64,000 bases of DNA from Aquabacterium sp. (GCF_030652515.1 NZ_JAUSAR010000010.1:1-64000), one strand, 5' to 3'. Counted from the stretch's first letter, positions 13,037-31,422 are shown. Notes: generated by a model from the letters alone, not told the origin. A program made the numbers and translations.

Positions 13037-14143
13037 TCAGCCGCGCTGGCGGCGCGAGTGCTCGTGCACCGTGTCCACCAGCACCGACACGTGCTCGGGC
13101 GGCGTGAACTGGCTGATGCCGTGTCCCAGGTTGAAGATGTGGCCGTGGCCAGCACTCGGCACGCCAAAACTGTCCAGCGTTTTGATGACTTCGGCCTGGA
13201 TTTGCTCAGGCTTGGCGAACAGCACGTTGGGGTCGAGGTTGCCCTGCAAGGCCACCCGGTCGCCCACGCGGGCTCTGGCCTGGGCCAGGTTCACGGTCCA
13301 GTCCAGGCCGATGACATCACTGCCTGCGTCGGCGATCTGGTCGATCCACAGGCCGCCGCCTTTGGTGAACACGATGTGCGGGATGCGGAAGCCGTCGTGC
13401 TCTTTCTTCAGTTGCGACAGCACGCGCTTGGTGTAGGCCAGGCTGAACTCCTGGAAGGCGCCATCGGCCAGCACGCCGCCCCACGAGTCGAACACCATCA
13501 CGGCCTGGGCGCCCGCTTCGATCTGGGTGTTGAGGTACAGGGCGACCGCGTCGGCGTTGATGGCCAGGATGCGGTGCATCAGGTCGGGGCGCTGGTACAT
13601 CAGGGTCTTGACCAGGCGGTAGTCGTCCGAGCCGCCACCTTCGACCATGTAGCAAGCCAGCGTCCAGGGGCTGCCCGAGAAACCGATCAGGGGCACGCGG
13701 CCCACACCGTTTTCGTCTGACAGGGCCTTGCGGATGGTGCGCACGGCGTCGAACACGTAGCGCAGCTTGTCCATGTCGGGCACGGCCAGCTTGGCCACGG
13801 CGGCTTCGTCGCGCACCACGTTGGCAAACTTGGGGCCTTCGCCGGCGGCAAAGCTCAGGCCCAGGCCCATGGCGTCGGGCACGGTGAGGATGTCGCTGAA
13901 CAGGATGGCGGCGTCCAGGTCGTAACGGGCCAGGGGTTGCAGCGTGACCTCGCACGCGGCCTCCGGATTGGTGGCCAGGCCCATGAAGCTGCCAGCCTTG
14001 TCGCGCGTGGCGCGGTACTCGGGCAAATACCGGCCCGCCTGTCGCATCAGCCACACGGGGGTGGCGTCGGTGGGCTGGCGCAGGCACGCCCGCAGGAAGC
14101 GGTCATTGGCCAGGGGAGGGAGCTTGGGCTTGGCGGATGTCAT
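13037..14143 (-). CDS. hemE: Uroporphyrinogen decarboxylase
   Basis: Cytosolic haem-pathway enzyme that decarboxylates uroporphyrinogen III to coproporphyrinogen III. The N-terminal signature [16 protein letters not shown], the [15 protein letters not shown] segment, [19 protein letters not shown] and GHGIxxxTPPEHV (here [14 protein letters not shown]) are all present. Length (368 aa) is usual. It converges with the EamA gene seven bases away, and its 5' end faces the acyltransferase locus. Confidence 0.97.
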
Positions 14144-14260: not shown

Positions 14261-15712
14261 ATGGTCCAAGCAGTTGACGCGATCACCCATGCCCTGAACC
14301 GCACCGAGCACGGCTACGCCGCCATCGATGGTGCGGCCGGGTCCATGGCCCAGCCTTACATGATTCGCCTGAACGCGCCCGTCGCCGAGGCGGATGTGCG
14401 CCGTGCGATGCGGTCCCTGGTCAGCCACCATCCCCGCCTGCGGGGTGTGGTGGCGCCGGGGTTGTATTTTTGCCGTTTGCGCATCCTGCCGGATGACGAA
14501 CTGGTGGACCAGTTGTTCAGCGTTGCCTACCGCGTCGAAGCGCACATCAATGCGCAAGACGCTGCCGCGCTGGAGGCCTACCAGAATCAGATGCTCAACG
14601 AGGTCATGCCGCTGGAGCGCGGCCTGAACGTGCGCATGCGTTTCATGCCGCATGCCTCGCAGCCCGTGATCCTTTTCTGCCTTCACCACCTGTTCGGCGA
14701 TGGGCGCACCTGCATGCAACTGGTGGGCGATCTGCTCAAGCTGCTCAATGGCCAGGCCATCGAGGTGCAGCCGTTGGAAACGCCCTCCATGTTGGGTGCG
14801 GTGGCGCCGGCCCATTGGTGGCAATGGCCGCGGCAAATCTGGCGCTCGCGTCAGCACAAGGTGAACGAGGCTAAGCGCCAGGCAGGCTTGCACATCCAGC
14901 AATTGCCGATGCGGACCACGACGCACTTCTCCGTCAACGCCATGCGCCAGCACCGGGTCAGCGTGGGCTCTGCGGTTTTGCGCCAGGCCGCGCGCAAGCT
15001 GGGGGTGTCGCTCAACACTTTCATGGTGTCGGCCGTGGCCCAGAGTTTCCTGGACCAGGCGCCGGATGATCCTCAGGCCGCCGCCGTGATCCGCATCTCG
15101 GTCGATTTGCGCCGCCACTACCCCGAGTCGCGCCAGTTTGGTCCGCTGTGGGGCAACCACGTGGGCGCCTTCCTGGTCACCGAAGACGATCCGCGCAAGT
15201 CCCTGCCCGACCGGGTGCGCTCGGTGGGCGCGCACGTCAAGGAGGGGCTGGACCGATTTGCGCGCCGCGAGATGTTCTGGGCCTACCTCTTGGAAGAGGC
15301 CATGCCCTTGCTGGGCCGAACCTTGATCGGGCATGTGGCTCACCAGCTCAAGCGCCAGAACAAACTCCCCAAGATCAGTTGCCACTGCACCAGCCTCGGC
15401 GATGTCAGCGGCATCAATCCACCGGGCGCGGCCATCAGGGTCATCGAGTTCCAGCCCATCGTGACCAGCGTGGCCCTGTTGATGGTGATGGTGGAGCTCG
15501 ACGGGGTGTTCTACCTGCCCACCTCGTGGCAGCGTAGCGACAACACGGTGCAAGAGATCGACGCCTGTCTGGCTCGACTGGACCGCACGTTCGAGAGGTT
15601 GGTGCGCGAGGCGGGCATCGATCCCGCTGGGCAGGCGGCCAGCGGCGCGGTGCAGCGCGATGATCCATCGCCGAGCAGGCCGTTGGTGACATGTGATTCG
15701 TTGAACGCCTGA
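14261..15712 (+). CDS. Condensation-domain-like acyltransferase (first of tandem pair)
   Basis: Member of the chloramphenicol acetyltransferase/NRPS-condensation/PapA fold group, standing alone without carrier or adenylation domains. The catalytic motif HHxxxDG is intact as HHLFGDG (about residues 142-148). A second conserved block, WGNHVGAFLV near residue 305, sits where these enzymes have their structural DFGWG-like motif. The N-terminus begins NRTEHGYAAID, shared with the next gene. The start at 14261 is chosen by alignment to the paralogue; a small inverted repeat (AGGGCG/CGCCCT) lies 17 nt before it. Substrates unknown; ester or amide formation from acyl-CoA or acyl-carrier is the family reaction. 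Confidence 0.72.
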   Translation: MVQAVDAITHALNRTEHGYAAIDGAAGSMAQPYMIRLNAPVAEADVRRAMRSLVSHHPRLRGVVAPGLYFCRLRILPDDELVDQLFSVAYRVEAHINAQDAAALEAYQNQMLNEVMPLERGLNVRMRFMPHASQPVILFCLHHLFGDGRTCMQLVGDLLKLLNGQAIEVQPLETPSMLGAVAPAHWWQWPRQIWRSRQHKVNEAKRQAGLHIQQLPMRTTTHFSVNAMRQHRVSVGSAVLRQAARKLGVSLNTFMVSAVAQSFLDQAPDDPQAAAVIRISVDLRRHYPESRQFGPLWGNHVGAFLVTEDDPRKSLPDRVRSVGAHVKEGLDRFARREMFWAYLLEEAMPLLGRTLIGHVAHQLKRQNKLPKISCHCTSLGDVSGINPPGAAIRVIEFQPIVTSVALLMVMVELDGVFYLPTSWQRSDNTVQEIDACLARLDRTFERLVREAGIDPAGQAASGAVQRDDPSPSRPLVTCDSLNA

Positions 15713-15752
15713 TCACCTGTTCGCGGGGGTGGCATCTGGCCGATGTCGGGCC

Positions 15753-17129
15753 ATGATGCGTTTCATGGTCGCCATCACCCACGACATCGTCCCTTTCAAT
15801 CGCACCGAGCATGCCTATGCCGCCCTTGAAGGCCTGGCGGGGACCATGATCCAATGCTACCTGTTGAGGTTGAGTGCGCCGGTGGACACCTCACTGGTCA
15901 AGCGCGTGCTGCGCCAGCTGGTCACGCTTTACCCCAAGCTGCGCGCCGTCATCGAGCCGGGGCTGCACCGCTACCACTTCCGCATCCTGCCGGATGACCT
16001 GGTGGTGGATCAGTTGTTCGAACTGGCCTTCGAAGTGCAAGCGCACATCGAGGTGGATGACCCGGCCGCGCAACTGGCCTGGCATCGCCAATGCCTGCAC
16101 CACGTGGTGCCGCTGGAAAAAGGCATCGGGCTGCGCATGTGGTTTGTGCCGCACGCCCAGCGTCCCGTGCTGATGTTCGGTGTGCCGCACATCTTTGCCG
16201 ATGGGATGACGATGATCCACCTGGTCAAGCAGTTCATCCAGGGGATCAACGGCCTGCCGATGGAGGCCATGCCCATCGAGGCGCCCTCCATGGTGGGCGC
16301 CATCGCTCCCACGCATTGGTGGCAGTGGCCCGCCAAGGTATGGCGTTCGCGGCAACACAAGGTGGCCGAGCACCGGTTGCTGGCCAGCGTCAATGTGCAG
16401 CAACTGCCCCGCCAACCCAGGCCGAACCACGGCACCTCCGGCCTGAGCCAAGGCAGTCTGCCCGTGCCCGCGGCGGATTTGCGCAAAGCAGCTCGCCAAT
16501 TGGGCGTGACCCTCAACACCTTCCTGACGGCGGCCATTGCCCAGACCTTTCTGGAGCAGTCGCCCGATGACCCCAAGGCCGCGGCGGTGATCCGCACCTC
16601 GGTGGACATGCGGCGCTACTACCCCAAGTCGGCAGGACACGGGCCCATGTGGGGCAACCACGTGGGCGCCTTCCTGGTGATCGAGCAGGGGCCGGGCAAG
16701 TCCTTGCAAGAGAGGGTCAAGTCCATCGATGCCAGCATCAAGGAAGGTCAGTCACGCTTTGCCCGCCGTGAGATGTGCTGGACCTATCTGGTCGAAGAGC
16801 TGATGCCGTTGATGGGCCGCACCCTGATCGGCCACGTGGGCGTGACGTTGCGCCGGGCGGACCGCTTCCCCCAGATCAGTGCCCACGCCACCAGCCTGGG
16901 CGATGTCTGTGCCTACTTCAACCCCAAGGATGCGGCGATCCAGGTCGCTCAGTTCTCGGCAGCCGTCAACAGCATCTCGCCGATCATGGGCTTGATCGAG
17001 GCCCACAACGAACTGCTCTGCGCCATGATCTGGCAGGAGTCAGAGACGTCGGCCGATGACGTGGCGGCGTTTCGCCAGCGCCTGGGCGCCACGCTGGCGC
17101 GGATGGTCCAGGAAGCAGCGGGCGGCTGA
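15753..17129 (+). CDS. Condensation-domain-like acyltransferase (second of tandem pair)
   Basis: Full-length paralogue of the preceding gene, sharing NRTEHxYAA, the RILPDD and DQLFxxA segments, HWWQWPxxxWRSRQHKV, LGVxLNTF and GPxWGNHVGAFLV. Its catalytic motif reads PHIFADG: the second histidine and the DG are kept but the first histidine is proline. Since only the second histidine is catalytic in the family, activity is likely retained. Start ambiguous among ATGs at 15753, 15756 and 15765. The pair presumably arose by tandem duplication with divergence of substrate, which is inference. Confidence 0.7.
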   Translation: MMRFMVAITHDIVPFNRTEHAYAALEGLAGTMIQCYLLRLSAPVDTSLVKRVLRQLVTLYPKLRAVIEPGLHRYHFRILPDDLVVDQLFELAFEVQAHIEVDDPAAQLAWHRQCLHHVVPLEKGIGLRMWFVPHAQRPVLMFGVPHIFADGMTMIHLVKQFIQGINGLPMEAMPIEAPSMVGAIAPTHWWQWPAKVWRSRQHKVAEHRLLASVNVQQLPRQPRPNHGTSGLSQGSLPVPAADLRKAARQLGVTLNTFLTAAIAQTFLEQSPDDPKAAAVIRTSVDMRRYYPKSAGHGPMWGNHVGAFLVIEQGPGKSLQERVKSIDASIKEGQSRFARREMCWTYLVEELMPLMGRTLIGHVGVTLRRADRFPQISAHATSLGDVCAYFNPKDAAIQVAQFSAAVNSISPIMGLIEAHNELLCAMIWQESETSADDVAAFRQRLGATLARMVQEAAGG

Positions 17130-17140
17130 GGCGCCGCCCG
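17119..17140. terminator. GC-rich hairpin between convergent genes
   Basis: CGGGCGGC / GCCGCCCG, 8-bp perfect stem with a 6-nt loop, spanning the stop codon of the second acyltransferase and lying just before the end of the converging GNAT gene. It has no T-run, so termination is only a possibility; it may protect 3' ends. Confidence 0.4.
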
Positions 17141-17146
17141 ACGGTC

Positions 17147-18244
17147 TCAAAGGCGGCCGAGCTCCACGTACAGCGGGCGGTTGTCGATGCCTGGGCGCGG
17201 ATCCTCGCCATAGCTCAGCCAGAAGTGGCTGGAGAACAGCTTCTGGCGCTTGTAGCCGCGTGGCACGTTTTCCAGCGGGTCGCCGTTGGTGATCGCAATC
17301 GCCAGGGCGTCGTACTTCTGGCCCTGGTGGGCCATGATCCAGTCGATCAGGCCCTGCAGCACCGCCGGGTCGTCTTTGGCGACCAGGATGTTGTACAGCG
17401 ACAGGTAGTTCAGCGCGCCGCCGATGGCGGGCAGCTTGAAGCCACCGGTCAGGCCCACGTACAGGTTGTACAGCGGGCGCAGCACCTTGACGATGGGCTT
17501 GAAGCCCACGATGCGCGTCTGCTTGTAGGCCTTCTGGTTCCAGCCGGCCAGGAAGCCGATGATCTCGCCATTGCGCGTGGCCAGGGCAAAGTCGCCGATC
17601 GACAGTCCCGCGTAGTAAGGGTCACCAGCGTGCAGCTTGGTGAAGTCGTACACCGGGTAGCCATTGCGGCGCGGCGCTTCGCGGTCGAAGAACACCTGCA
17701 TGGCGGGCACGTCGGCGGCCGTGGCCGCGCGGATCTGCACGCCAGCGGGGATGCGCGGCGTGATCTTGCGCGTGAAGATGAAGCTGGTCTCGATCGCGTG
17801 GCTGATCCAGTAACGGAACAGCACGCCATCGGCCGAGTTGGCGGCGGCGTCCAGCGGGGCCGTGTTCTCTTTCAGCACGATGCCTTGCAGCAGGTCCTCG
17901 TTGGATCGGAACTTCTTTTGCTCCACGAACAGGTTCGAAGCAATGCCGCGGCGGCGGTAGAACGGGTCCACGCGGGTGTCGCCCGAGTAGTACACGCGGC
18001 GCTTTTGACCACTGATGAACAGCTCGCGGCCCGAGATCACGGTCAGGCCCGCCAACACCTCGGGGCGCTCATCGTCATCGGCCACAGTCAGCACGAACTC
18101 GTCACCGATCACCTTGGCGCCAACAAAGAAGTCCGGCGCGCGCTGGAAGCACATCTGCGCCACGCCCGGCATCGTGATCTTGGTGATCAGGTCCTGCATC
18201 TTGGCGTTGTCGGCGGGTGTGCCCAGTCTTACGGTGATGGCCAT
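17147..18244 (-). CDS. GNAT-fold acyltransferase, long form
   Basis: 365-residue protein with a GNAT domain in the first half: acyl-CoA phosphate-binding motif YRRRGIASNLF near residue 95, preceded by beta-strands (VYYSGDTRVDP). The second half (from about residue 170, VQIRAATAADVPAMQVFFD) begins like a second GNAT domain, so this may be a tandem-GNAT protein with one degenerate copy. It is the last gene of the minus-strand operon with the GH3 enzyme. Substrate unknown; N-acylation of an amine, possibly the GH3 product or its amino acid, is a guess from context. Confidence 0.68.
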   Translation of the reverse strand: MAITVRLGTPADNAKMQDLITKITMPGVAQMCFQRAPDFFVGAKVIGDEFVLTVADDDERPEVLAGLTVISGRELFISGQKRRVYYSGDTRVDPFYRRRGIASNLFVEQKKFRSNEDLLQGIVLKENTAPLDAAANSADGVLFRYWISHAIETSFIFTRKITPRIPAGVQIRAATAADVPAMQVFFDREAPRRNGYPVYDFTKLHAGDPYYAGLSIGDFALATRNGEIIGFLAGWNQKAYKQTRIVGFKPIVKVLRPLYNLYVGLTGGFKLPAIGGALNYLSLYNILVAKDDPAVLQGLIDWIMAHQGQKYDALAIAITNGDPLENVPRGYKRQKLFSSHFWLSYGEDPRPGIDNRPLYVELGRL

Positions 18245-18295
18245 GGTCGGTGAAAGTGGTTGTTCGTGTGGAGGCGATTCTGAAGCAATCGAGGG

Positions 18296-19930
18296 TCAGG
18301 CGGCGACGGCGTCCAGCACATCGCGCAGCACGGCCGGTACTTCCCCACGCCAGTGGCGCAAAGGTTCGATCTTGATGTTGCCCTCGATCATGCCGCGCAG
18401 GCGGCACTGGTCCAGGTAGATCTCGCGCATGTGGGGCAGGGCGATGCACGCAGCGGGTTGCAACTGGCCCAGCTCGCGGGCCAGCTTGTAGTGGAAGTTG
18501 CCCAACAAGGCCTTCTCCAACTGGGCCGACAGCGCCTGCTGCAAAGTTGTGCGGTTCACCTCGGGGGCGCATTCCACCAGCAGCACATAGCCGGGGGATT
18601 GGTGGGTGCTGTGGTCCAGCGCCAGCAAGGTCACGGGCAAGGCGTTGTCCAGCGGCAGGCTGTCCTGCACCTGCTGTGCGGTGGTGGCGCTGATCTTTTC
18701 GCCCACCAGGTCCACGCCATCATTGCGGCCCAGGAAGGTGAAGCAAGGCACCTGGCCCAGGTGGCCATCCACGCGGATCACGTCGCTCATCTTGTAGCGC
18801 GCAAAGCCGCTGCCGGTGGTCATGATCGGGATCACGTCCTGGCCTTCGCGCAACTGCCAGGGCGCCAACACCCGGCCATCCTGTGCATCCTGGAACTCGT
18901 AGAAGTGGCTCAGGTAGGACAGCGGATAACGGCCTTGAAACGGGAAGGTCACCACGCCTTCGGTGGCCCACAAGCCCTTGCCCTGGAAGTTGGCGTGCGG
19001 CATCAGCGACTTGAGCTTCTGTGCCCAAGGCGCCGCAGCGGCTGTGTCCCAAGCGCTCAGCACGGCCAGCTGAGGCCACAGCTTGGCGAAGAACTCGGCG
19101 TTCATCGCGCCATTCCACTCGCGCAGTAATTGCGCGGCGCGTGGCGATTGAGGGCAGGGCAGCCCGGCCATGTGCGAGGTGCGACTACCCCAGTGGCCGC
19201 GCGACAAGGCTTCGGCCAGCTCTTCGCGCCAGCGGCCCATCTGCTCCAGCAGGCCCAGGCCAAACGTGGGGCTCCACACCGAGATGAAGCCCAGCGCCTC
19301 GTCGGCCACCAGGTAAGCCAGCGTGGCGAACAGCGAATCGTCCGACGTTTCGGCCAGTGCGATCTCTTGCGGTGCTGCCTGCGTCAGGTACGCCAGCAGG
19401 CGCTTGCCCCAGGACAACATCTTCATGTCGTCGTTGATGTCACCGGCGGTCTGGCCGCGCATGTCGGTCGGAATCCACGACAGCGACCAATAGTGCGTGC
19501 CATTGGCCTGCCCGGGGAACTGGCGGTACAGATCACCCACCCACGCCGTGATCACCTGGTCCAGCTCGTCCAGGAACATCTTGGTGTACGGGATCCACTT
19601 CACCGCCGAGGTCGAGCCACTGGTGGGCTGGTAGCGCATCACCGGCGAATCGATCAGCAGGTTCTGTTTGCGCTCGCGCTGCTGCAGCAGCAACTCCGCG
19701 TAGTCGCTGTAGGCAGTGACGGGTTGCTGGCGCGCGAACTCTTCCCACGACCAATCCGCGCGGATGCCTCGGCGTTGTCCTTCGGGGGAATTGGAGGCAG
19801 CGGACAACCAACGCGACAACCTGGCGCGCTGGATCGATTCCAGTTCGCCAAGATGCCGTTCAAAACGGCGCCGGCCCGGGGCGACCAGCAGTTTGAGAAG
19901 GTGGTGTCCTAGGGTATGACTGGCCCCCAT
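18296..19930 (-). CDS. GH3-family acyl-acid amido synthetase
   Basis: Member of the ANL adenylating superfamily related to plant GH3 enzymes, which adenylate a carboxylic acid and transfer it to an amino acid. Motifs: phosphate-binding loop TSGSTSAVKWIPYTK near residue 103 (plant SSGTSxGxxK), ATEG followed by FYEF near the middle, and RYKMSDVIRVDG (plant YRYRVGDVLxVxGF), then FTFLGRNDGVDLVGEK. At 544 aa it is the usual size. The start lies one base after the stop of the upstream GNAT-like gene, so the two are translationally linked. The acyl substrate cannot be read from the sequence; auxin or jasmonate activity should not be assumed. Confidence 0.85.
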   Translation of the reverse strand: MGASHTLGHHLLKLLVAPGRRRFERHLGELESIQRARLSRWLSAASNSPEGQRRGIRADWSWEEFARQQPVTAYSDYAELLLQQRERKQNLLIDSPVMRYQPTSGSTSAVKWIPYTKMFLDELDQVITAWVGDLYRQFPGQANGTHYWSLSWIPTDMRGQTAGDINDDMKMLSWGKRLLAYLTQAAPQEIALAETSDDSLFATLAYLVADEALGFISVWSPTFGLGLLEQMGRWREELAEALSRGHWGSRTSHMAGLPCPQSPRAAQLLREWNGAMNAEFFAKLWPQLAVLSAWDTAAAAPWAQKLKSLMPHANFQGKGLWATEGVVTFPFQGRYPLSYLSHFYEFQDAQDGRVLAPWQLREGQDVIPIMTTGSGFARYKMSDVIRVDGHLGQVPCFTFLGRNDGVDLVGEKISATTAQQVQDSLPLDNALPVTLLALDHSTHQSPGYVLLVECAPEVNRTTLQQALSAQLEKALLGNFHYKLARELGQLQPAACIALPHMREIYLDQCRLRGMIEGNIKIEPLRHWRGEVPAVLRDVLDAVAA

Positions 19931-19931
19931 G

Positions 19932-20804
19932 TCAGGAGGCCTTGGTCCGCTCGATCGCCTCGTCGGCGTCCGCGTCCAGCCATGCCTGCTTGTTGTCCAC
20001 GCTCGACGTCACTTGACGCTTGGCCAGCTCCAGGCCTTCCGGGCGGTGGGTGCCCAGGATGTGCTTCTTGATCCACTTCCAGGGCACGTCCACGATCGAG
20101 CGGAACAGGCTCTCGTAATCGCAGGCGGCCAGGCAAGGCACCTCGGTGCCACGGCGCCAGCTGGGGTTCACCTTCTCGAAGAAGGCAATGTGCGGATTGG
20201 CCGCGACCAGCTCGGGTGTGATGGTGGCCACGTCGCCCTTCAGCCGCACGTAGGTTTCGCCGAAGTCCAGCAGCATCTTCTCGCGGTCAAACGCGTCGGG
20301 GAACAACTGCTGGCAATACGCCTCGGTGACGCGGCGGTACTGGTCGTCCTTGCCGTTCACGTTGGGGTAGTAGTTGTAGAAGTTGTTGGTCATCAACAGG
20401 TACGTCTTGTACCCCTTGGAGATCAGGAACCAGTAGAAGGGCACGAAGGGACGCTTCAGACGCTCGATGATCAAGCGGCGGTAGAAGGTGTTGGCCAGGG
20501 CATTGTTGCCCCAGTAAGCCTGCTCGATGATGGTGTCGCCACTGAAGATGCCGCGCACGCGTTTGCCATCAACTTTCAAGTCGAAAAACGTCTGCGTCGA
20601 GAAGCCCACGATCTGGTCGTCCACGGCCCGGGTCACCAGGATCACGCCGGACTTTTTCGACAGGTCCGTCAGGAAGACGTCCAGCGAGGTGTTCTCGTAG
20701 TACTTCGCGTACAGGTCATACATCTGCTTGATGTTGGTGACCGTCACTGAGCTGATGGGCCTGAAGAAGGTGCTCACCTTCTCTTTTTTGATTGTTGCGG
20801 ACAT
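19932..20804 (-). CDS. GNAT-like protein, first gene of the GH3 operon
   Basis: 290-residue protein. The ATG at 20804 (MSATIKKEKV) has a GGAG ribosome site; the longer track frame is leader sequence. Features resembling a GNAT fold are strands VILVTRAVDDQIVGFSTQTF and the region GDTIIEQAYWGNNALANTFYRRL, in the position of the CoA-binding loop but lacking the classic QxxGxG/A. It shares the STFFRPISS... opening with no family I know. It is immediately followed by GH3. Likely function: acyltransferase or acyl-chain binding partner. Low certainty on activity. Confidence 0.55.
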   Translation of the reverse strand: MSATIKKEKVSTFFRPISSVTVTNIKQMYDLYAKYYENTSLDVFLTDLSKKSGVILVTRAVDDQIVGFSTQTFFDLKVDGKRVRGIFSGDTIIEQAYWGNNALANTFYRRLIIERLKRPFVPFYWFLISKGYKTYLLMTNNFYNYYPNVNGKDDQYRRVTEAYCQQLFPDAFDREKMLLDFGETYVRLKGDVATITPELVAANPHIAFFEKVNPSWRRGTEVPCLAACDYESLFRSIVDVPWKWIKKHILGTHRPEGLELAKRQVTSSVDNKQAWLDADADEAIERTKAS

Positions 20805-20850
20805 AAAAATCACTCCACCGGGGCGCCCAGGGCCAAGACAACAGACCCCC

Positions 20851-20870
20851 GTTCCCCTCTCACAGGGAAC
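20851..20870. promoter_or_regulatory. Inverted repeat in the leader of the GH3 operon
   Basis: GTTCCC / GGGAAC with an 8-nt loop, 47 nt upstream of the start codon of the first operon gene. It could be an operator or a leader hairpin. No T-run. Confidence 0.3.
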
Positions 20871-20968
20871 CGCGCGGGCCGGCTGGGAAACAAAATGTTG
20901 CAATTACTTGCCTGTTGATCAGGATGCCGCTCTTGTCCAAAATCCAGCATGGGGCTTGCCCGAGGAGA

Positions 20969-20985
20969 CCCCTCAATCAGGGGGT
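20969..20985. promoter_or_regulatory. CCCCT-N5-AGGGG palindrome, site B
   Basis: CCCCTCAATCAGGGGGT lies in the divergent region between the GNAT/GH3 operon (start 20804, minus) and the GNAT gene at 21012 (plus). The layout matches sites A and C exactly (5-nt spacer). For the plus-strand gene a TATACA -10-like hexamer is only 7 nt past the site, so there a bound protein would more likely repress. For the minus-strand operon it lies about 170 bp upstream of the start codon. Confidence 0.6.
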
Positions 20986-21011
20986 GTGCCGATATACACT
21001 GACCATCACAC

Positions 21012-21527
21012 ATGAACGCCCACACCCCTTCGATTTCCTTGTGCGCGGCGCAGTGGCCGCAAGATTGGGAGCAGGCCGCGGCCATCCTGGCCGAGTACGG
21101 CGAATCGTTGGGGGTGGACCTGTCTTTCCAGTCTTTCGACCGAGAACTGGTCGATCCCGCCGGCGCATATGCGGGGGGCGAAGAAGTCTTCCTGCTGGCG
21201 ACGGTGGATGACGCGATCGCCGGGTGTTGCGCACTGCGCTCCTTGCTGGATGCCAGCGAGGCGAATGCCTGCGAGATGAAGCGTTTGTATGTGCGCCCCG
21301 CCTTCCGAGGCTTTGGCTTGGGGCGCATGCTGGTCGAAACCTTGATGCAGCGTGCCCGTGAATCAGGTTTCGGCACCATGTTCGTGGACACCCTCAGTGA
21401 CATGGAGGCGGCCCGCGAGCTGTACACCAGCCTGGGCTTCGTGCCCACCGAGCCCTATTACTTCAATCCACTGCCCGGGGCGCACTACTTTCGGGCGGAT
21501 CTGGACGGCGCCGTCAGTCGCTACTGA
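21012..21527 (+). CDS. GNAT-family N-acetyltransferase
   Basis: 171-residue single-domain GNAT acetyltransferase using acetyl-CoA. The core is clear: MKRLYVRPAFRGFGLGRML (RxxGxG/A loop, about residues 94-112), then DTLSDMEAARELYTSLGFVP, the usual C-terminal strand and helix with tyrosine. Substrate unknown. It stands between the GH3 operon and the ATP synthase operon and shares its upstream region, including site B, with the GH3 operon, so it may belong to the same pathway. Confidence 0.85.
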   Translation: MNAHTPSISLCAAQWPQDWEQAAAILAEYGESLGVDLSFQSFDRELVDPAGAYAGGEEVFLLATVDDAIAGCCALRSLLDASEANACEMKRLYVRPAFRGFGLGRMLVETLMQRARESGFGTMFVDTLSDMEAARELYTSLGFVPTEPYYFNPLPGAHYFRADLDGAVSRY

Positions 21528-28955: not shown

Positions 28956-30058
28956 CATGGTGGCGTGTGTTGGCCACGGGCCTGGCCCGCGCTGGCTTCG
29001 CGCACCGCCATGGGCGTCATGCCGGTCCATCGGCGCACGGCACGGTGGAAGGAGCTGGTCTCGGCGTAACCGGCCTCGGCGGCGATCCGTGCCAGTGGCA
29101 GGTCGGTCAGGCGCAGTTGCATCAAGGCGCGCTCTTTGCGGGCTTCTTCCACCAGGCCTTTGAAGGTCAGTCCCTGAGCCGCCAGCTGGCGCTGCACATG
29201 CCTGGCCGGACCCGGGCTGAGGCCGCTGTCGTGCAACCCTGTGCAGACGAGTTCCAGTGTGGGGCTCTCGCCGCGGTCCAGCGCCAGCAAGATGGCCTGC
29301 TGAACCCAGGCCTTCAAGGCGTCCACATCCTGGGTTCGGGCCTGCCACTGCCTTCGCGCCATGGCGCTCATGAGGTCGTGGATGGGCGGGTCGGCGTTCG
29401 GGTTGGCCCAGCCCAGCCAGTCGGCGGGCATCAACTCCCGGCATTGGGGTGCGCGGAAGTTCACGGGGCCGCCAATGAAGTCCTGGAAGGGGCGGACGTT
29501 CGCGGGGGGCGCGCAGGGCAGTTCAACCAGCGCGGGCACCAGGTCGCGGCCGGACACCCAGCGTGCAAAGCCCAGGCGCGAGGCGGTGAAGAAGGACCAG
29601 AAATGGTAGTCGTCGGGCAAGGGCCCCAGGGCCTCGTGGCGAGCTTCCAGGTGGGCTCCAACCACGCTGAAGTGGCCGCGCAACTCGGTGCAGAGCAGGC
29701 TTTGCAATTGTTCGAACAAGGCCAGGCCATCACCCCCCACGGTGCAGCTCATGAGGGCGTAGCCCAGTGAGCCGAGGTGGGTGGGGCGCACCAGGCTGGC
29801 CACGTGCAGGCCGATGTGCTCATCGCCCAGCCGCTGAGACGCCTTGGCCAGGGCCTGGCTCAAACGCCATGCGGGCACACGCCGCCCCTCGTCCTGGGCT
29901 GGCGAGCTGGGCAGGGCCAGGATGTCGAGGATGGCTTGGGCATCGTGGCCTTGCGCCTGCAGGTAGTCGGCCACCACGCGCACAAAGGAGGCACTGAAGC
30001 CGGAACCGGTGGAGGCGCCGGGTGGCATCAAGGGGGGTGGGAAAACGGCGGTACTCAT
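28955..30058 (-). CDS. AraC-family transcriptional regulator
   Basis: 367 aa. The first two-thirds resembles the arabinose-binding-like ligand domain found in OruR/ArgR-type and quorum-related AraC regulators (FVRVVADYLQAQGHDAQAILDI, LGSLGYALMSCTVGGDGLALF). The C-terminal helix-turn-helix pair is clear: LPLARIAAEAGYAETSSFHRAVRRWTGMTPMAVRE. Divergent from the MpaB/Lcp-like gene, which it probably controls. Ligand unknown. Confidence 0.88.
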   Translation of the reverse strand: MSTAVFPPPLMPPGASTGSGFSASFVRVVADYLQAQGHDAQAILDILALPSSPAQDEGRRVPAWRLSQALAKASQRLGDEHIGLHVASLVRPTHLGSLGYALMSCTVGGDGLALFEQLQSLLCTELRGHFSVVGAHLEARHEALGPLPDDYHFWSFFTASRLGFARWVSGRDLVPALVELPCAPPANVRPFQDFIGGPVNFRAPQCRELMPADWLGWANPNADPPIHDLMSAMARRQWQARTQDVDALKAWVQQAILLALDRGESPTLELVCTGLHDSGLSPGPARHVQRQLAAQGLTFKGLVEEARKERALMQLRLTDLPLARIAAEAGYAETSSFHRAVRRWTGMTPMAVREASAGQARGQHTPP

Positions 30059-30183
30059 GAGTGACAGATGGTAACGGGGTCGTGGTGGCTTGTGCGGTCA
30101 CTGTGGTGGTGTCTGCTGTCAATGACGGCCTGGCCTTGCCGCATCAACATCCAGAGACCGTTCCATGCCCGAAGGCCCACTCG

Positions 30184-31422
30184 ATGATGATGTCTCCGCA
30201 ATCCCTGGCCGCCTCGCCCATGCAGCCCCCGCCTCCCAGTCGCCATGGTGCCGACCTGGCGGTCAGCCGCCGCATGGCCGCGCGTTTGAAGATGACCATT
30301 TCCGGGCCGTGCGAGCCGAGTGAGGCGGAATGGGCCGCCATGGGCTCGGCCTTGTGGCGCGGCGACCCCTTGGCCGATGACGTGGCCCGGTGGCTGCATG
30401 AGGAGGGCATGAACGAGGGGCGCGGCCAGTTGCAGCGCGCCATGGCGCAAGGTGTGGTCGATGGCGACGGCACGCCGCCCGCCTTGCGGCGCCTGATCGA
30501 GCATGTTCAGTCCGTGCCGGATTGGGTGGACCCGGTGTTGATGGCGCGGGGCGCGCGGTTCCTGCAAAGCACCGGTTTGCACGGCATGCGTGTTCTGCGC
30601 GACGCGGGCCTGATGGCCGGCTACCAGGCCTCGGCCATCAACCAGACCCTGGTGCAGACCGGGGCCTTGAGCCGGGGCGCGCAAAAGCGGGTGTCCGAGA
30701 CCACGTCGTGGTGGCTCGACTGCACCGCCGATGGCGGGCTGGTGCCCCATGGCCCAGGCTGGAGGGCCACGATGCATGTGCGCGTGATGCACGCGCTGGT
30801 GCGCCAGAATGTGCGCCAGCGCCCCACCTGGGATGCCGCGGCTTTGGGCCTGCCCATCAACCAGCTTGACCTGCAGGCCACCTACCTGGCGTTCAGCGTG
30901 GTGCAGTTGCTGGCCTTGCGCACCACGGGCTTCGTGGTGACGAAGTCGGACGCGCGTGCCGTCATGCACTTGTGGCGCTACATCGGCTGGCTGATGGGGG
31001 TGGACGAGGCATGGCTCTGTGATGACGAAATGCAGGGGCGTGTTCACCTCTACCGCAACCTGATCAGCCAGGCACCTCCCGATGCCAGCAGCGTGGCCTT
31101 GGGCCGGGCCTTGATGGACGAGCCACTGCAACGGCACTATGCCTGGGGACATGCCTGGCGGGGGCATTTCGACAAGGCGCGCCACCTCAGCCTGGTCCGT
31201 TGGTTCGTGGGCCGCGAGGGCATGGGGCACCTGGGCTTGCCCTCGGCCTTGCCCTGGTACCCGCTGCTGACTTTCCTGCCTTTGTTGATCGCATCGGGCC
31301 TGCCGCGCCTGCTGCCTGGATCGCTGGGGGAGCGGGCCGCCCGCATCCGGCGAACGCAGTCGGCCTACTGGCGCCAGGAAATGGGGGGTGGCAAGCCGCG
31401 GGAGCATTGCCCTAGACTGTAG
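30184..31422 (+). CDS. DUF2236 / MpaB-Lcp rubber oxygenase-like protein
   Basis: Oxygenase-type domain found in latex clearing protein (Lcp) and fungal MpaB, which use one b-type haem. The core shows RVSETTSWW followed about 40 residues later by RVMHALVR, the arginine/threonine and haem-histidine blocks of the family, and later LDLQATYLAF and MHLWRYIGWLMG. No signal peptide is evident, unlike secreted Lcp, so a substrate other than polymeric rubber is likely. The start is uncertain: the track GTG at 30061 overlaps the divergent araC promoter, so I prefer the ATG run at 30184. A hydrophobic C-terminal stretch (YPLLTFLPLLIASGLP) may touch the membrane. Confidence 0.75.
   Translation: MMMSPQSLAASPMQPPPPSRHGADLAVSRRMAARLKMTISGPCEPSEAEWAAMGSALWRGDPLADDVARWLHEEGMNEGRGQLQRAMAQGVVDGDGTPPALRRLIEHVQSVPDWVDPVLMARGARFLQSTGLHGMRVLRDAGLMAGYQASAINQTLVQTGALSRGAQKRVSETTSWWLDCTADGGLVPHGPGWRATMHVRVMHALVRQNVRQRPTWDAAALGLPINQLDLQATYLAFSVVQLLALRTTGFVVTKSDARAVMHLWRYIGWLMGVDEAWLCDDEMQGRVHLYRNLISQAPPDASSVALGRALMDEPLQRHYAWGHAWRGHFDKARHLSLVRWFVGREGMGHLGLPSALPWYPLLTFLPLLIASGLPRLLPGSLGERAARIRRTQSAYWRQEMGGGKPREHCPRL

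Follow-up and report, generated by a model that had tools for sequence, protein, structure and literature searches.

The question raised by the locus described here is which of its six genes form a unit and what that unit produces. The locus occupies positions 14261-21527 of a 64,000-nucleotide stretch of Aquabacterium sp. DNA (GCF_030652515.1, NZ_JAUSAR010000010.1:1-64000; "the window" always means this whole stretch) and is set between hemE (URO-D) and the atp genes. It comprises two condensation-like acyltransferase genes, C1 and C2, on the plus strand; GNATb, GH3, and GNATa on the minus strand, GH3 encoding an acyl-acid amido synthetase; and a small GNAT gene on the plus strand. A first-pass annotation, made from the sequence alone, proposed an undescribed acyl-conjugating locus with GH3 and the condensation-like pair as its core. 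A GH3-centered, carrier-protein-free unit does seem to be undescribed, but its core is different: the real conserved unit is the trio GNATa-GH3-GNATb. We propose, with a probability of roughly 55%, that this trio is a carrier-protein-free module joining a carboxylic acid to an amine as an amide, the product being exported in the Aquabacterium/Alcanivorax/Acinetobacter branch.

Conservation of the GNATa-GH3-GNATb trio

A scan for GH3 yielded 44 loci, and all three genes could be placed in 40 of them, which come from Aquabacterium and other Burkholderiales and from Alcanivorax and its relatives. The order and strand of the trio are identical in 40 of these 40 loci, and the spacing between GNATa and GH3 is -4 to +10 bases save for one outlier of start choice, an arrangement that is far beyond chance. 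GH3 is 52-57% identical in Alcanivorax and relatives. When 369 genomes of Gammaproteobacteria (in the GTDB sense, one per species) were sampled evenly, trio-type GH3 was found in nine, GNATa in exactly those nine, and GNATb in eight; the contig of the ninth ends before GNATb. The one GNATa recovered from genome G448 is not next to GH3 but beside radical-SAM genes, and in genome G315 GNATa is on a contig separate from that of GH3. Co-occurrence in other genomes, which the first-pass annotation had named as the check on its proposal, was examined for the trio and holds across Beta- and Gammaproteobacteria. Within the genus Aquabacterium, GH3 is present in 39 of 42 genomes and in all 31 genomes of good quality.

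The GH3 proteins of the trios form a single clade (support 100/99), apart from GH3 proteins that have no GNAT partners. The Aquabacterium proteins are nested in a group (100/100) otherwise made up of Alcanivoracaceae and relatives, which suggests that the trio moved between orders by transfer. More distant GH3 genes (L084-L088, L091-L094) were considered as the same system and rejected, GNATa and GNATb not being nearby; the tree, which included L084-L087 and L091-L094, places these outside the trio clade.

The features of the locus and its flanks are as follows.

13037-14143: hemE (URO-D), flanking the locus on the C1 side
14261-15712, plus strand: C1, condensation/PapA-like acyltransferase with motif HHLFGDG; accessory, with a genus-level association
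15753-17129, plus strand: C2, condensation/PapA-like acyltransferase with motif PHIFADG, the first His being replaced; accessory, a tandem copy of C1
17147-18244, minus strand: GNATb, 365 residues, tandem-GNAT fold; third gene of the trio
18296-19930, minus strand: GH3 acyl-acid amido synthetase, 544 residues, with three nucleotide-binding motifs
19932-20804, minus strand: GNATa, 290 residues, GNAT fold; first gene of the trio, with invariant FSGDT and LISKG motifs
21012-21527, plus strand: small GNAT (GNATc), an ordinary single-domain GNAT acetyltransferase
from about 21643: atp genes, read from the sequence, flanking the locus on the GNATc side

All six genes lie where the first-pass annotation had placed them. 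The trio is transcribed in the direction GNATa to GH3 to GNATb, and the one-base gap that had been noted before the GH3 start is confirmed, the stop codon of GNATa occupying 19932-19934 and the ATG of GH3 19928-19930. A sigma-70 promoter was looked for 5' of GNATa and none was detected. No carrier-protein domain is found on the contig of the window, as had been remarked, and the other contigs of the genome hold 40 PP-binding matches. The small GNAT was tried as a member of the unit and rejected, as it adjoins the trio only in loci L010, L011, L012, L019, and L034 (42%); it is probably not part of the unit and is confined to the nearest relatives. The idea that the locus serves anti-phage defence was likewise rejected, PADLOC having given no meaningful match.

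Contamination of the genome is estimated at 9%; the locus is nonetheless syntenic across independent genomes. The end of contig C99 (L116) and the start of contig C216 (L115) resemble near-duplicates, which fits this estimate if the source is a close relative. Elsewhere in the window (28958-31419), a gene of the MPAB/Lcp type (rubber-oxygenase-like) diverges from an AraC-type regulator gene.

Proteins of the trio and the condensation-like pair

The assignment of GH3 is certain by Pfam, as all three GH3 domains (PF03321/PF23571/PF23572) score above the cut-off of 23.6, with 121.2, 48.1, and 27.5 bits, respectively. Its motifs TSGSTSAVK, QGKGLWATE, and GSGFARYKMSD, compared with the nucleotide-binding motifs published for OlsH and plant GH3 enzymes, are kept across 21 aligned members. 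OlsH of Singulisphaera acidiphila, described in 2025, is a bacterial GH3 enzyme that synthesizes N-acyl-ornithine from free fatty acids and ornithine with ATP and without acyl carrier protein (ACP) or coenzyme A (CoA), and loss of its residue S115 abolished activity (PMC12493201). The serine of motif 1 aligns with this residue, and the two most distant members read TGGS instead. The GH3 profile also matches plant GH3 structures (E 4e-24). From these relationships GH3 is predicted to adenylate an acid and to ligate the acyl group to an amine in an ATP-dependent reaction. Plant GH3 enzymes (JAR1, GH3.12, GH3.5, GH3.6) are homologous and share the motifs, but the similarity is distant and resides mostly in the nucleotide-binding regions, and a hormone substrate is not predicted for the trio enzyme.

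The two GNAT-fold partners are less readily classified by sequence. GNATa matches no Pfam or NCBIfam family, so its earlier description as GNAT-like finds no support in these collections, although it is borne out by the AlphaFold2 model (predicted local distance difference test score, pLDDT, 81), which has a GNAT fold. Its 50 best matches in the PDB are mostly GNAT enzymes, the best being aminoglycoside acetyltransferases, and LuxI and FeeM are absent from these best 50 of 166 structure matches (E<=0.001). GNATb has no Pfam family above cut-off; its model (pLDDT 92.5) agrees with the earlier GNAT call in being a tandem GNAT and best matches tandem-GNAT enzymes and N-myristoyltransferases, the nearest folds being glucosamine N-acetyltransferase, mycothiol synthase, and N-myristoyltransferases (template-modeling score, TM, up to 0.61). 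The structure matches share 8-18% identity, from which substrates cannot be fixed. Stand-alone paralogs of GNATa are present in the genome of the window at L114:7558-8352, between genes that appear to encode glutaminyl- and tryptophanyl-tRNA synthetases, and at L115:468-1322. In a further locus (L117:7156-13269) GNATa is accompanied by an AurF-like oxygenase gene, a desaturase gene, and two radical-SAM genes of the B12 type, and GH3 is absent; GNATa may thus also work in a related pathway that has no GH3 beside it.

C1 and C2 are 50% identical to each other. Their Pfam Condensation scores of 25.2 and 21.8 bits are below the cut-off of 30.6, so that the earlier term "condensation-like" is weak for these two proteins themselves and is sustained for their family, in which 14 of 19 members match at E<0.001 (best 3.6e-10). 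In the H-x3-DG motif the second His, the Asp, and the Gly are invariant in the 19 members; the motif is intact in C1. C1 and C2 resemble PapA and the condensation-type acyltransferases of non-ribosomal peptide synthetases in matching the Condensation and PapA_C profiles and in keeping H-x3-DG, but they differ in being stand-alone and sub-threshold, in having no carrier protein nearby, and, for C2, in lacking the first His of HHxxxDG. The proposal that GH3 and this pair form a conserved unit is not borne out in that form: among the 369 sampled genomes the family occurs only in that of the window itself (with three copies), its genes lie on the strand opposite to the trio, and some Aquabacterium trios lack it. 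A copy lies between GNATb and hemE in most Aquabacterium loci and is absent beside the trios of L030, L031, L033, and L036. Nevertheless, the Alcanivorax operon encodes another, distinct protein of condensation fold that carries H-x3-DG (85% probability, E 6e-6, in a profile comparison with C1/C2), which leaves a role for condensation-type enzymes plausible.

Genomic settings of the trio in relatives

Three unrelated types of exporter adjoin related trios, making an exported product likely in the Aquabacterium/Alcanivorax/Acinetobacter branch. Genes for HlyD, an ABC ATPase, and an ABC-2 permease follow GNATb in many Aquabacterium loci. In Alcanivorax the trio adjoins genes for the condensation-fold protein, a membrane-fusion protein, and an RND pump, and most loci also have an AraC-type regulator gene in divergent orientation. 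In Acinetobacter baumannii the setting is EmrAB/TolC-like, HlyD and MFS genes preceding GNATa and an outer-membrane efflux gene (OEP) lying between GH3 and GNATb. One such locus (L127, NZ_CP104448.1, 3108231-3133763) reads HlyD-MFS-GNATa-GH3-outer-membrane efflux-GNATb and is about 9 kb from adeS; the trio-bearing A. baumannii records are chromosome-sized though filed as plasmids. An EmrAB pair of this species, which may or may not be that of the trio locus, has been studied for colistin. No exporter gene lies beside the trio in the window, from which this strongest hint at function is absent.

Other trios keep different company, and the desaturases among their neighbors point to lipid chemistry. 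One setting consists of a Rieske oxygenase, a 220-residue membrane protein, the trio, an RnfD/FG-GAP/UnbV fusion, a desaturase, and a SnoaL-like protein; the fusion after GNATb in these Rieske-type clusters (L078:5315-8071) is a protein of 919 residues with an RnfD/NqrB-type membrane part, FG-GAP repeats, and UnbV/ASPIC domains. Another setting has two B12-binding radical-SAM proteins encoded between GH3 and GNATb. On a Citrobacter portucalensis plasmid typed as mobilizable (L128, NZ_CP134684.1, 40147-65637) the order is GNATa-GH3, two radical-SAM genes, GNATb, two further radical-SAM genes, and a PAP2 phosphatase gene; the cluster also has a desaturase gene and one more radical-SAM gene, the fifth, and reads as an unexplained lipid-like pathway. 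That it might also be plasmid-borne in Escherichia coli was considered and dropped, as no near match was found among 5,426 E. coli genomes.

Proposed reaction and its alternatives

We infer the reaction, its substrates, the order of steps, and the product as follows. GH3 would use ATP to adenylate the acid, most likely a fatty acid, and then transfer the acyl moiety to the amine, for which an amino acid or another polar amine is the likeliest candidate. GNATa and GNATb may supply the amine, or may add a further acyl group to it or to the product, and in Aquabacterium a second acylation may follow through C1/C2, which would parallel the succession of OlsH and OlsI in planctomycetes. The product would be exported in the Aquabacterium/Alcanivorax/Acinetobacter branch and might act as a surface lipid, surfactant, or signal; for the species of the window itself export is presumed from relatives, as no exporter adjoins its trio. 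An N-acyl amino-type lipid is favored as the product on account of the exporters beside trios, the desaturases, and the OlsH precedent. The OlsB-type PF13444 gene located elsewhere in the genome makes ornithine lipid itself a less likely product.

The comparison with OlsH/OlsI (PMC12493201) is informative in both directions. Shared features are membership of the bacterial GH3 family, the three nucleotide-binding motifs, the proposed carrier-free, ATP-dependent N-acylation, and the availability of a second acyltransferase. However, the partners in the trio are two GNAT-fold proteins, joined in Aquabacterium by condensation-fold acyltransferases; the unit is without an OlsI-type alpha/beta-hydrolase O-acyltransferase or an OlsG methyltransferase, and exporters adjoin its relatives. 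Conservation in the operon extends to GNATa, GH3, GNATb, and exporter genes and no further. GNAT-like N-acyl amino acid synthases of the FeeM type have been proposed for lipoamino-acid surfactants (PMC6669457), but FeeM uses acyl-ACP and acts alone, whereas the trio is centered on an ATP-dependent GH3.

Several observations weigh against the proposed module. The exporters adjoining trios could carry other cargo, and the window has none there; the acid used by GH3 could be other than a fatty acid; and C1/C2 are almost confined to the genus. Additionally, the acetyl-CoA loop of the GNAT fold appears degenerate in GNATb outside Aquabacterium, so that catalysis by GNATb is putative, and GNATa, given its stand-alone paralogs in the window's own genome and the GH3-less locus beside radical-SAM genes, is not exclusive to the pathway.

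Alternatively, the trio might make a known type of membrane amino lipid, acyloxyacyl in structure (an ornithine, glycine, or lysine lipid), N-acylated by GH3 and given its second fatty acid by C1/C2, with no secretion. The OlsH precedent favors this, the presence of GH3 in 31 of 31 good Aquabacterium genomes suits a structural lipid more than a rare secondary metabolite, and condensation-like acyltransferases adjoin the trio in most Aquabacterium loci. We nevertheless consider it rather unlikely, since the PF13444 gene may already cover ornithine lipids, the trio has no conserved OlsI-like companion, the OlsH/OlsI scheme has no role for GNATa or GNATb, and the trios of relatives adjoin exporters. 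The same genus-wide presence is unusual for a defence metabolite, which bears on the idea that the product is a small, non-lipid signal or defensive amide, formed from an aromatic or short-chain acid and an amine and exported, with the GNATs acetylating for self-protection. Although plant GH3 enzymes use aromatic and hormone acids, GNATa is best modeled against aminoglycoside acetyltransferases, and an AraC-type regulator diverges from most Alcanivorax loci, the fold matches are too distant to fix substrates and fatty-acid desaturases recur in relatives, making such a product improbable. Conjugation could, finally, serve to degrade, detoxify, or store an environmental acid, in the manner of auxin conjugates, and the pumps would then remove the conjugate. 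Plant GH3 conjugation inactivates acids and the hosts of the trio include hydrocarbon degraders, but the genes found around the trio act in lipid tailoring and export, with no recurrent catabolic gene observed among them, and two further conserved enzymes would be left without explanation; we give this very little credence.

A 2019 review states that the biosynthesis of marine bacterial lipoamino-acid surfactants, including the proline lipids of Alcanivorax dieselolei, was not yet described (PMC6669457); this proline-lipid biosurfactant is a lipoamino acid from a genus that shares the trio, and that the trio makes such surfactants is offered as a hypothesis only. In the open full texts searched, with subscription journals mostly outside coverage, neither a description of the trio nor a bacterial GH3 with GNAT partners was found, and OlsH was the only bacterial GH3 of known function. 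More broadly, and tentatively, since we hold it possible rather than probable, the trio may be an undescribed and widespread pathway by which Proteobacteria make N-acyl amino lipids for secretion or for the cell surface, coupled by different lineages to three exporters or to Rieske/desaturase or B12-radical-SAM tailoring, and including the Alcanivorax surfactants as well as the systems of A. baumannii and the Enterobacteriaceae plasmid.

Bacterial GH3 enzymes are common, and in the texts searched only OlsH had a known role. A fixed trio with two uncharacterized GNAT-fold partners and recurrent exporters offers a directly testable path to what would be a new class of amide lipids. As the trio is found throughout Aquabacterium, in oil-degrading Alcanivorax, in A. 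baumannii, and on a Citrobacter plasmid, its product could matter for oil degradation, for surfaces, and for opportunistic pathogens.

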